Assembly (NCBI RefSeq): GCF_030159895.1
Contig: NZ_BSNI01000002.1
Span: 1,824,306 to 1,888,305 of the forward strand
Direction: 5' to 3'
DNA from: Maritalea porphyrae
GTDB taxonomy: Bacteria > Pseudomonadota > Alphaproteobacteria > Rhizobiales > Devosiaceae
Length of the DNA: 64,000 nucleotides
Of the stretch, positions 35,185-38,955 are shown in pieces; the stretch's first letter is position 1; each line of letters starts with the position of its first letter. The notes under the pieces are model-generated. The model was not told where the DNA came from and made no database searches. It saw nothing but the letters and a program-made list of their open reading frames with translations. The translations under genes were made by a program, and so were the position numbers.

Positions 35185-37326
35185 GTGAAAACTAGATTTA
35201 TTGTATTTTTTTTATCAGTGGCAGTTGGGTTGTTTTTCGTTCCGCTTCTCTTGCGGACACTCGCAGCTGACTCTCTTGCCCTAAACCCTTCTATTATGGA
35301 CATGCGCGCTTCGGCTTTCGATTTTCTGATTGTTGCCGTCATCTTGTTTGTTTTCAGTTTCATATCTGGTGGGCTCAACCCAATCATAACGGCAGTGGTG
35401 ATCGCATTGTTCGGTTTAATCACGTTGTGCAACATGGAGTTTGTTCGCGTATTTGGCGAGCCGATAGAGTTTAGGCAAGCGGGATACCTTTTTGATCCAA
35501 CGTTTTTCTTCGGTTCTGCCATCAGAGTTTCGACCCCCTGGGTTTTTGCTGTTTATGGTGCAGTTGTTGCTGGGGTGATTTGGTCAGCCAAGAGCTTGGA
35601 ATTGGACATCAAACGAAAGATGTTTTTGTCTGCCGCTGTTGGGTGCTCAATATTGTTGTTGTTGCCGAACAACAGTAATACCGCCGCGTGGCGTGAGCTG
35701 AGTGTGTTACAACATAGCAGTCAGAGTTTTTTCAATGCCGTCAACGGGCGACAAGAATATCACGCCGCACTCGAGATCAGTGCCGAGGCATTTGCGGAGG
35801 TTGAACGCAGTCTAAAGCATGATGTTGATGGAGTGTCTCTGATTAATGAGCCGCTTAACAAACCCAACATCCTGCTAATTGTCTTGGAAAGTGTAGCTGG
35901 TCCCTTTTTGCCTTCAATCGCTTTGCAGCATGGCGTAGACAGTGATGTCAAAATGAGAAACTTGGATGAATTCTCTAAGCGCGGGCTTTCATATTCTCGT
36001 TTTATGACGCATCAGGTGCAGACCATGCGCGGAACCTATGCAATGTTATGTGGTGATCTACCCCGTTTTTCATTTGAAATGCCAAAACTAGAGGTTGCTG
36101 CCCTAAGTGGAAATCGGTTGCGATGTCTGCCACAAGTGCTCAAAGATCATGGTTATTCAACAAACTACCTACAAGCCGCGCCGCTGTCATACTCCAATAA
36201 GGACACGGCATTGCCATTGATTGGTTATGATGTAGCACAAGGAGCAGAGTGGTTCGGGAAAGACTTGGTTGGGGCTGGCTGGGGTGTTGGCGATGATGCA
36301 TTGTTCCAAGAAGCTTTAAAAATAGTATCTTCGCTAAATGACAAAGATCAGCCTTGGTTCTTAACAGTACTCAATGTGGGCACTCACCATCCGTTTGATC
36401 AGGTGCCTAGCAGTTTTGTTGGTAGCAGCGACCAAAAGACCCGTTCATTTGAATATCTTGATTATGAGCTGGGCAAGTTTATCAACCAGTTGTCAGATCG
36501 ACGAGACCTGTCGAACACACTCATTGTAATCACCAGTGATGAAGCAGGTGGTTTGATGGGGCGGGGGACGCCTGCTGTGCAAAAATTGGCGCGCAACCTT
36601 GGTACAATGACGATGGTTCACCCATCCCTGCCATCACGGCGCATCGACGACGTTTTCGGACAAATTGATTTTGCGACGACCATTGTCGATTTACTTGGTA
36701 TAACGGGGGAGACCCAGTTTCAAGGACGATCAGCTTTTCGAGAGTACATTAAGCCTCGCAAAATCTTCGCATTTCACAATTATGGAGGTACGCTCTTCGA
36801 GCTTTCACAAAATATGGTTGTGATGTGTACAGTAGAGCTAAGCAAGTGCGAGTGGTTTGAAATGCCCGGCGGTCAACTTGGCAAGTTGAGCCAAACTTCA
36901 TCGAAAAACGCTATTCCGCCCACCATGCTAGCAGCACTGGAGTTGAGCGAACCACGAGTGCCGGACGTCGAATTCAAGCTCATGGAAGAAGATCAGCAAT
37001 TTACCATTGAAGATGACGGCGCGTACGTTTTTTGCTGCCAATATATGAAGTTGGCAGGCAATCGCTCTTTGCTAATCGATTTGCACATTGAGTTTGAGCC
37101 CGAAATCGATGGGGTAGCTCTCCACTTCGATGTTGTTAGTAACAAAAATGGCGTGTTCACAACGCATTATCAAAAAACTGAGCAAGCGAATAGCGCCGGA
37201 AGTTTTGTTTTGCGCAAACTACTTCGATTTACAAAAGACATCGAGGAAGTTGAAGTGCGGATGCATGTAGATGGAGCCTCAAAATTAGTTTCGAAAAAAG
37301 CAATTCTTCAAGTTCAATCATTCTAG
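35185..37326 (+). CDS. membrane-anchored sulfatase-fold transferase/hydrolase (LTA synthase-like)
   Basis: 713 residues. About four membrane helices fill residues 1-150. The catalytic domain follows (about 225-560): NILLIVLESVAG supplies the first metal residue, FMTHQVQTMRGTYAMLCGDLP the likely nucleophilic Thr, FLTVLNVGTHHPF the metal His, and VIVITSDEAGG-like LIVITSDEAGG the last site. The C-terminal 150 residues have no family I recognise. Such enzymes move phosphoglycerol or phosphoethanolamine onto glycans, or cleave sulfate/phosphate esters. It starts at GTG without a clear Shine-Dalgarno sequence and stands between a terminator and the hom promoter, i.e. inserted in an otherwise conserved gene order. 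Confidence 0.82.
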   Translation: MKTRFIVFFLSVAVGLFFVPLLLRTLAADSLALNPSIMDMRASAFDFLIVAVILFVFSFISGGLNPIITAVVIALFGLITLCNMEFVRVFGEPIEFRQAGYLFDPTFFFGSAIRVSTPWVFAVYGAVVAGVIWSAKSLELDIKRKMFLSAAVGCSILLLLPNNSNTAAWRELSVLQHSSQSFFNAVNGRQEYHAALEISAEAFAEVERSLKHDVDGVSLINEPLNKPNILLIVLESVAGPFLPSIALQHGVDSDVKMRNLDEFSKRGLSYSRFMTHQVQTMRGTYAMLCGDLPRFSFEMPKLEVAALSGNRLRCLPQVLKDHGYSTNYLQAAPLSYSNKDTALPLIGYDVAQGAEWFGKDLVGAGWGVGDDALFQEALKIVSSLNDKDQPWFLTVLNVGTHHPFDQVPSSFVGSSDQKTRSFEYLDYELGKFINQLSDRRDLSNTLIVITSDEAGGLMGRGTPAVQKLARNLGTMTMVHPSLPSRRIDDVFGQIDFATTIVDLLGITGETQFQGRSAFREYIKPRKIFAFHNYGGTLFELSQNMVVMCTVELSKCEWFEMPGGQLGKLSQTSSKNAIPPTMLAALELSEPRVPDVEFKLMEEDQQFTIEDDGAYVFCCQYMKLAGNRSLLIDLHIEFEPEIDGVALHFDVVSNKNGVFTTHYQKTEQANSAGSFVLRKLLRFTKDIEEVEVRMHVDGASKLVSKKAILQVQSF

Positions 37327-37350
37327 TTGCGCTGCTATAGGATTTGCTGG

Positions 37351-37378
37351 TTGACGAATAGGACATTTCCTATTTAAG
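37351..37378 (+). promoter_or_regulatory. putative hom promoter with a near-perfect palindrome
   Basis: TTGACG (37351-37356) is directly followed by AATAGG (37357-37362), six bases, and CCTATT (37369-37374); the inner bases pair too except one. TTTAAG (37373-37378) is a possible -10. A second ATAGGA lies shortly upstream. A repressor bound here would block the promoter. Confidence 0.4.
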
Positions 37379-37440: not shown

Positions 37441-38955
37441 ATGTCTGAGTTAGAACAGTTCCGAATGCGGGTTGAGCGCTTTATTGAACGCCACAACTGG
37501 ACAGCCACGCGATTTGGCCGTGAATTGGCCGCCGATCCCCAATTTGTATTCAACTTGCGCGAAGGCCGAGAGCCTCGCGCAGAAACACGAAACAAGATTT
37601 CCGACATGATTCAAAAAATTGAAAAAGAAAACTCAAATGCAGGCGCACCAATTCGAATTGGGGTGGCGGGTGTCGGCACGGTCGGGGCTGCATTGGTCAA
37701 TATGTTGCAAGACCAACAAGATGATGTGCAAAAGCGCTTTGGTCGCGATATCGAGGTAACAGCTGTTTGTGCACGCTCTCGTTCAAAGGATCGCGGTGTC
37801 GATTTGAGCGCTGTAGAATGGTTCGATGATCCGGTCCAGCTTGCAAAATCCGATTCTATCGATCTCTATGTGGAATTGATGGGGGGCGAAGATGGTCCTG
37901 CACTTGCAAGCATACGCGCTGCGCTTGAGGCAGGCATTCCTGTTGTAACGGCAAATAAAGCGCTGATTGCCAAGCACGGCGTTGAAATTGCGCGGCTGGC
38001 GGAAAAATATCAAACATCATTCAGTTTCGAAGCAGCGGTGGCTGGCGGTATTCCGGTGATCAAAACATTGCGCGAAGGCTTGGGTCTTGCGCGGGTGCAG
38101 CGCGTTTACGGCATCATGAACGGGACGTGTAACTACATCCTGACACGCATGTCGAACGAAGATATATCCTTTGCTGCTTGCCTGAAAGATGCGCAGGAGC
38201 TTGGTTATGCTGAAGCTGACCCAACTTTTGATATTGAGGGATTTGACACAGCGCACAAACTAGCGATTGTCACAAGTCTTTGCTTTGGAACTGAAATTGC
38301 TGCCGACGAGATGTTCGTAGAAGGAATCACACGCATTGATCAGGCAGATATCAAAGTGGCAGACGATTTGGGCTTCAACATCAAATTGCTCGGCGTCGCT
38401 CAGCGCACGCCTGACGGTATCGAGCAGCGTGTTCACCCGACCTTGATCCCCAAGACATCGACAATTGCAGGAATTGATGGGGTATTGAACGCTGTGGCAC
38501 TTGAAACCAACCATGTGCAAGAACTGCTGATGGCGGGGCCAGGCGCAGGCGGTGATGCAACAGCGGCTTCAGTGTTGGCGGACATTTTTGATAGTGCACG
38601 CGGTACATTGGTGCCGCCACTCGGTATGCCGGTAGACGAGCTCGCGCCATACAAAAAGGCGCGCATGCGTGCACATGAAGGTGGCTACTTCATACGACTA
38701 AATGCTAGGGACATTCCGGGCGCGCTAGCTGCTATAGCGTCTCGCATGGGTGAGAGTGACATTTCGCTGGAAAGCGTCATCCAACGTCCAGATTTGGTTG
38801 TTAATGATCCTGAGGCGGGTGATGTGGCAACTCGGACAGTGGTTTTGATCACTCAAGAGACAATGGAACAGTCTGTGCGCCAGACGCTTGATCAGGTCGC
38901 GCAAGACGGATTTATTGTTGGCACTCCGCAAGTTATTCGTATTGAACGGTTCTAA
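37441..38955 (+). CDS. hom: homoserine dehydrogenase with N-terminal HTH-like extension
   Basis: 504 residues. Residues 1-65 form an unusual extension (RFIERHNWTATRFGRELAA, then DPQFVFNLREGREPRAET) resembling small XRE/lambda-repressor-like domains. The enzyme begins at about 73 with the NAD(P) loop IRIGVAGVGTVGAALV; the catalytic segment includes MGGEDGPALASI, VTANKALIAKHG and GTCNYILTRM, and a C-terminal ACT domain follows (IPGALAAIASRMGESDISLESVIQ) for feedback control. It reduces aspartate semialdehyde to homoserine for threonine and methionine. No good internal start separates the two parts, so a true fusion is likely. Confidence 0.93.
   Translation: MSELEQFRMRVERFIERHNWTATRFGRELAADPQFVFNLREGREPRAETRNKISDMIQKIEKENSNAGAPIRIGVAGVGTVGAALVNMLQDQQDDVQKRFGRDIEVTAVCARSRSKDRGVDLSAVEWFDDPVQLAKSDSIDLYVELMGGEDGPALASIRAALEAGIPVVTANKALIAKHGVEIARLAEKYQTSFSFEAAVAGGIPVIKTLREGLGLARVQRVYGIMNGTCNYILTRMSNEDISFAACLKDAQELGYAEADPTFDIEGFDTAHKLAIVTSLCFGTEIAADEMFVEGITRIDQADIKVADDLGFNIKLLGVAQRTPDGIEQRVHPTLIPKTSTIAGIDGVLNAVALETNHVQELLMAGPGAGGDATAASVLADIFDSARGTLVPPLGMPVDELAPYKKARMRAHEGGYFIRLNARDIPGALAAIASRMGESDISLESVIQRPDLVVNDPEAGDVATRTVVLITQETMEQSVRQTLDQVAQDGFIVGTPQVIRIERF

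Follow-up and report, generated by a model that had tools for sequence, protein, structure and literature searches.

Homoserine dehydrogenase (Hom) of Maritalea porphyrae carries at its N-terminus a small helix-turn-helix (HTH) domain that, to judge from sequence comparison, is a relative of Cro, is nearly fixed in the family Devosiaceae and very probably recognizes the promoter of hom itself. Hom seems to control its own gene, given the predicted fold of this domain, a nearly private operator, the parallel loss of head and half-site in one genus and the presence of related half-sites at unrelated genes that encode the domain. This is the part that stands of the self-contained feedback regulator proposed in an earlier, sequence-only reading of the region, whereas control by a ligand is retained by analogy. 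The kinship with Cro, the near-fixation in the family and the fusions of the domain to further enzymes go beyond that reading. We consider it highly likely that the protein is a trigger enzyme, that is, Hom with an ACT-like domain whose captured Cro-type head would repress its own promoter in a ligand-tuned manner; DNA binding, the sign of the regulation, the geometry of the oligomer, the capture and the ligand control are the elements of this scheme that we infer.

A predicted HTH domain fused to homoserine dehydrogenase

The window analyzed here, 64,000 nucleotides of M. porphyrae (Devosiaceae), contains on the forward strand an open reading frame (ORF, 37441-38955) for a protein of 504 amino acids, in which a predicted in-frame HTH domain of about 62 residues of the lambda-repressor/Cro type precedes an ordinary Hom (Table 1), bearing out the fusion that had been read from the sequence. 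Residues 70-503 match the Hom model NF004976 over the whole domain, with 510.1 bits against a curated cut-off of 205, and the Pfam families Homoserine_dh and NAD_binding_3 both score above their cut-offs. The best solved relative of the enzyme part is 3mtj, and 6dzs is likewise a Hom. Alignments comprised 19 of 30 family sequences and the window protein with 49 of 65 homologues, respectively; K173, E258, D269 and K273, which we take to be the catalytic Lys, Glu and Asp residues of Hom, are invariant in 50 aligned family sequences, and the enzyme part looks intact. The expectation of a normal Hom with an ACT domain holds for the enzyme, whereas the ACT match, with 25.8 bits, stays slightly below the Pfam cut-off of 27; the C-terminal, ACT-type part shows a beta-alpha-beta-beta-alpha-beta order in the AlphaFold2 model.

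Table 1. Features of the fused hom gene of M. porphyrae and of its upstream region (window coordinates)
Feature	Position	Strand	Evidence
Cro-like HTH domain, residues 1-62 (predicted)	37441..37626	+	AlphaFold2 helices, fold matches, family survey, column scan
Predicted recognition helix FVFNLR, residues 35-40, with N38	inside 37441..37626	+	AlphaFold2; column 38 top of scan
Linker, approximately residues 63-69	37627..37647	+	Block of low pLDDT at residues 61-70, mean 62
Hom NAD-binding and catalytic domains, approximately residues 70-404	37648..38652	+	Pfam, NCBIfam, 3mtj
C-terminal ACT-type domain, approximately residues 405-504	38653..38952	+	Pfam ACT 25.8 bits, strand/helix order in the model
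Putative operator core TAGG-N6-CCTA (TAGGACATTTCCTA)	37359..37372	+	75/80 vs 0/5053; ends 68 bases before ATG
-35-like TTGACG beside the operator core	37351..37356	+	TTGAC 80/80 vs 286/5053
Place of the left half-site: CTGG here (diverged), CCTA in most relatives	37347..37350	+	Register of the three-site form
Extra TAGGA half-site, upstream	37338..37342	+	Sequence

For residues 1-70, no Pfam family, HTH families included, exceeds its cut-off, the only match being DUF7726 (14 bits against a cut-off of 26), and no convincing PDB chain was found for the head by sequence (best E-value 0.51). PHROG 4779, a transcriptional regulator, matches the head with an E-value of 0.0014, and a relative with tandem domains matches HTH_3, only below the cut-off. 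AlphaFold2 places helices at residues 3-18, 22-28, 35-40 and 47-68 (pLDDT 81 for the head modeled alone); in the full-chain model, the blocks of the head have pLDDT values of 85-92, and the model is weak at the linker (residues 61-70), the length and residues of which vary among the relatives. The nearest solved folds listed, judged by their names, are mostly lambda-repressor-like HTH proteins and have modest scores; these matches include HipB, SinR, C.AhdI, ClgR, P22 c2 and a POU-specific domain, none with an E-value below 0.001, the structural Z-scores are below 8, and Foldseek matches of the 72-residue model are weak (best E-value 0.44). The structure prediction envisaged from the sequence alone thus yields a four-helix HTH, consistent, at modest match scores, with a four- to five-helix fold of this kind, and the fold and its matches support the XRE-type identity initially suspected, with DNA binding as a prediction.

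HppE, an epoxidase with an HTH-like domain that is not known to bind DNA, is also among the structural matches to the head, and the seemingly intact enzyme part could use the head for assembly. Yet, as detailed below, half-sites are found at hom only where the head is present, head and half-site appear to have been lost in parallel, and related elements lie at unrelated genes encoding the domain, all of which makes a structural or oligomerization head that has ceased to bind DNA highly improbable; a DNA-binding head is the reading followed here.

Distribution of the fusion and the translation start

A survey of Hom proteins for the N-terminal extension first described from the window detected it in 126 of 136 Devosiaceae genomes (116 of the 119 good ones) and in none of 23 from outside the family. 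The carriers are soil and sea bacteria and include Devosia, Pelagibacterium, Maritalea, Cucumibacter and Arsenicitalea, among which Maritalea and Pelagibacterium belong to the Devosiaceae; in 120 of the 126 carriers, counted from a list, the head lies within an open frame of at least 500 amino acids. The first survey had found a Hom match reaching residue 1 in 32 of 37 family genomes (30 in one piece, two in two pieces), and a set of 24 genomes, one from each of 24 further families of the order, yielded 23 Hom matches (one of them, in G051, a fragment), none of which reached residue 1. The three good genomes that lack the head are G034 and G029, which lost it, and G008, where the hom match runs to the end of the contig. 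A chance fusion or an annotation artefact was considered and rejected because 116 of the 119 good family genomes carry the head.

The ATG at 37441 is the start that aligns with those of the relatives; an alternative upstream GTG at 37378 could lengthen the ORF. Inside the head, codon 56 of the window gene (37606) is also an ATG, and 64 of 65 homologues have ATG at the corresponding codon of the alignment, codon 57. A Shine-Dalgarno-like motif precedes this internal ATG in none of the 65, a weak test that says little because the main ATG is also without the motif in most of them (it is present in only six of 65, and before 8% of random internal codons). Standalone relatives, too, frequently have Met at this position, which suggests a structural reason for the conservation of the ATG. 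A separate Hom made from an internal start seems unlikely, and the comparative evidence lends good support to head and Hom being made as a single chain.

A putative operator upstream of the fused hom genes

The regions upstream of the fused hom genes in Devosiaceae (80 of 95 relatives were retained) share a block, CCTA-N8-TAGG-N6-CCTA, in which the spacing is constant and the first spacer contains TTGAC. The register of the block was anchored on this TTGAC, which is present within 120 bases upstream of hom in all 80 loci, compared with 286 of 5053 control windows. TAGGA/TCCTA half-sites occur in all 70 non-redundant upstream regions of fused hom genes (the k-mer counts used these 70 of the 80), as opposed to 206 of 5053 control windows, and in none of the 200-base regions upstream of 20 non-fused hom genes from 20 other families. 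The core, TAGG-N6-CCTA, was detected in 75 of the 80 Devosiaceae regions (the exact form is missing in five) and the complete three-site form in 64 of the 80, compared with none of the 5053 control windows in either case. Between the last half-site and the ATG lie 13-40 bases, 56 in one case and 68 in the window.

On the scale of whole genomes, the exact three-site form occurs once each in 100 of 136 family genomes, in 99 of them at hom when coordinates were compared by eye (two of the 99 in the opposite orientation), and is missing in 36, the window genome included. A control pattern, the same block read backwards, gives about 47 scattered hits in 37 genomes; an isolated hit of such a pattern thus means little, and the only three-site hit away from hom (in G003) may be a chance match. 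Judging from these counts, the operator appears to be almost private to hom. The window genome contains three exact copies of TAGGNNNNTTCCTA, one of which precedes hom, and the second lies inside an ABC-permease-like ORF (named by eye). The third copy (TAGG-N6-CCTA, locus L143, 1501-1514) overlaps the stop codon with which an smc-like ORF ends, and a GNAT-like ORF begins 10 bases further on, both ORFs being identified by eye.

With respect to gene order, the end of an aminotransferase gene lies within 260 bases upstream of about 13 of the 20 non-fused hom genes (by eye), and the gap between the aminotransferase and hom matches is at least 78 bases in 66 Devosiaceae loci. In the window, a gene for a sulfatase/LTA-synthase-like membrane protein (35185-37326, named by eye) separates hom from the aminotransferase gene; of the 80 Devosiaceae loci, L032 alone shows a match in this interval.

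Apparent parallel loss of the head and the central half-site

The Devosiaceae genus g12 appears to offer a natural experiment, in which the head is kept in three of seven species (G560, G016, G024) and lost in four (G034, G562, G029, G561; loci L268-L271), the genomes without the domain being drafts of 74-90% completeness. The central half-site reads ATGG, ATGG and TAGG in the carriers, so that GG is kept in all three, but two of the three already have ATGG; the four losers have CTTG, CCTG, ACGA and AAGT, with GG lost in each. Every loser keeps one flank, the left CCTA in G034 and G562 and the right TCCTA in G029 and G561, and TTGAC is kept in all seven species. In the Hom tree, one domain-bearing species is nested among the losers (moderate support; one row is a fragment), which suggests that the domain was lost twice or more, barring a regain. 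Head and central half-site thus seem to have disappeared in parallel.

The same comparison bears on the sign of the regulation, which is unreadable from sequence; some lambda-like repressors also activate, and the head might accordingly activate hom, or both activate and repress it. Yet the half-sites lie on either side of TTGAC and reach into the likely -10 element, which is the layout of a repressor, and TTGAC has been retained where the domain was lost, which would be expected of a promoter that functions independently of the head. Activation is therefore an improbable reading, and repression is the one that we prefer.

Relatives of the head in CI/Cro switches of phages and prophages

In IMG/VR, 34 viral contigs encode the domain. 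In 24 of these, the gene is divergent from an S24-like gene, with half-sites in all 24, whereas among nine other viral copies with upstream sequence and no recognized divergent S24, half-sites are present in two and absent in seven; many of the viral loci are near copies of one another and these counts refer to the unthinned set. A divergent S24 gene with half-sites between is the position of Cro, which is thus occupied by relatives of the head only, in 24 of the 34 viral loci; hom has no S24 neighbor, so its head is related to Cro through the domain and does not stand in Cro's position. In the family f39, which we presume to be Sphingomonadaceae, 110 of 119 genomes encode the domain, in most cases within a short open frame, and in all four loci viewed (L167, L168, L170, L177) it is divergent from an XRE-S24-like gene (by eye, with Pfam for L170 only). 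For 30 standalone genes of this family, a de novo k-mer count put GTAGGA/TCCTAC first among the 6-mers (29 of 30 compared with 13 of 290).

Among the proteins compared, the closest one outside Devosiaceae is a standalone, S24-paired protein (L322) with 40 of 61 residues identical to the nearest Hom head; viral copies share up to 37 of 51 aligned residues with the nearest Hom head and 23-28 of 43-52 with that of the window. A tblastn search with one standalone protein retrieved nothing in named phage records and three plasmids. Phage and prophage Cro-type proteins with a CI-like S24 partner thus have the same domain and TCCTA/TAGGA half-sites as Hom but, as far as seen, are not fused to enzymes, and we infer that the head was captured from a prophage-like CI/Cro switch.

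Two further arrangements were observed. In the proteins encoded in L120, L121, L123, L128, L129, L132 and L138-L141, the domain is present twice in tandem, and a helix-turn-helix comes after the second copy; the only tandem protein tested (L175) has HTH_17 by Pfam and an adjacent S24 gene. Furthermore, a chromosomal, CI-like XRE-S24 gene occurs order-wide (L146, 1240-1875), with TTTACA and ATAGGA/TCCTA in front of it in many loci.

The head on other enzymes and a predicted specificity residue

The domain is not confined to Hom. Seven genomes of the genus g442 (family f22; L323, L325-L330) encode it fused to CysD, the small subunit of sulfate adenylyltransferase, identified by NCBIfam in two of the seven and by eye in the others. 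TCCTA lies two bases before the ATG in all seven, and TAGG-N6-CCTA at -16 in four. Single loci encode fusions to CoaBC (L324) and to the class II fumarase FumC (L178; upstream region in L125), and in both cases the 150 bases upstream contain TCCTA or TAGGA. Proteins in which the domain is fused to a methyltransferase-like part of about 400 residues, recognized by eye, are present inside and outside the order of the window (L130, which is the same as L182, L133, L332 and L335); their residue 38 is R, TCCTA/TAGGA is absent upstream, and no Pfam match was found for the three tested (L130 as L182, L332, L335). No Hom was seen by eye among the carriers from other families in the wider search. The fusions to several enzymes suggest that the module was reused several times.

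A scan of 66 domain columns (106 ORFs were found, those with less than 100 bases upstream were left out, and 54 were kept at less than 70% identity, among them L137, probably a chance match) singled out column 38 as the best predictor of TCCTA/TAGGA upstream, with a z of 14.9, followed by column 34 with 6.1. Among the 54 dereplicated domains, half-sites accompany 36 of 37 with D, N or Q in column 38 and one of 17 with other residues, the p-values being inflated by the common ancestry of the sequences and by a D/N/Q grouping that was defined with the data in view; the background in 150-base windows elsewhere in the loci is 28 of 668 and 14 of 251. Proteins without half-sites mostly have R or another residue at position 38, the exception being L138, which has D38 and no half-sites, and the tandem-domain proteins of the dereplicated set, except L132, lack TCCTA/TAGGA upstream. 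Residue 38 is therefore a predicted specificity residue.

These observations also bear on the possibility that the hom operator is read by a separate chromosomal XRE-S24 regulator of the CI-like L146 type, with the Hom head as a passenger or a weak competitor. CI and Cro normally share operators, the S24 partners are divergent from the domain in viral contigs, and ATAGGA/TCCTAT precedes the L146-type gene in 18 of 30 loci (29 of the 30 from Devosiaceae), as TCCTA or TAGGA does in nine of 16 loci from other families (by eye). Yet S24 matches, some of them weak, were found in 60 of 61 genomes searched, and half-sites are present at none of the 20 non-fused hom genes. In g12, the S24 gene is at least partly present in all seven species (in pieces in G562 and G029), including the four domain-loss genomes, but the hom operator of these four has lost the central GG. 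Finally, whether half-sites are present correlates with the residue that the Cro-like domain has at position 38. Given that S24 also occurs in families and species without the operator at hom, an S24 regulator as the sole reader is unlikely, and recognition by the Hom head is the preferred explanation; the two may share the operator in the manner of CI and Cro.

We consider it fairly probable that Alphaproteobacteria repeatedly domesticated prophage Cro, together with its TCCTA/TAGGA operator, as an autoregulation head on Hom, CysD and, in single loci, CoaBC and FumC, the methyltransferase-like fusions being a variant without the operator, and that these proteins form a new class of single-chain enzyme-repressors.

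A putative trigger enzyme

By sequence and prediction, the fused Hom combines a DNA-binding domain and an enzyme in one chain, and by phylogenetic footprint the operator lies in the promoter of its own gene, both as in a trigger enzyme. The Hom oligomer would set several HTH heads on the TCCTA/TAGGA half-sites, which would flank and overlap the -35 and the likely -10 elements of the hom promoter, and plentiful Hom would shut off its own transcription. By analogy, this repression probably responds to the ligand state, through either threonine bound by the ACT domain or substrate/NADPH.

Solved Hom structures (3mtj, 6dzs) represent the same enzyme over residues 70-503 and, among those listed, align from residue 69 onward only. 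The closest parallel in design is trifunctional PutA, like the window Hom a metabolic enzyme with an N-terminal DNA-binding domain. PutA is described, in PMC5293562, as an autogenous repressor that acts through this domain. In PutA, a ribbon-helix-helix is joined to a catabolic flavoenzyme, whereas the Hom fusion has a Cro-like head on a biosynthetic enzyme and its module is found on several enzymes; the model of the head is all-helical and lacks the N-terminal strand of a ribbon-helix-helix.

Another biosynthetic enzyme with an N-terminal HTH is BirA, a biotin ligase and repressor that controls the genes of its pathway. The likeness extends to the HTH on a biosynthetic enzyme, whereas BirA has a winged helix and controls another operon. 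To our knowledge, only a small number of enzymes act as repressors of the genes that encode them, and each is usually regarded as an isolated case. No paper on a Cro-like head on Hom, CysD, CoaBC or FumC was found among the open-access matches listed, for queries without CoaBC and FumC as terms.

The fusions described here join one phage-type repressor domain to no fewer than four unrelated enzymes, two of which have half-sites next to their genes in several species each. They thus offer a series in which the conversion of a metabolic enzyme into a regulator can be studied, complete with a predicted specificity residue and, in the species that lost the domain, a natural knock-out series. If the domain was indeed domesticated from prophage Cro together with its operator, the half-sites common to these enzymes and to viral CI/Cro switches imply that such enzymes and resident or incoming prophages could cross-regulate one another.
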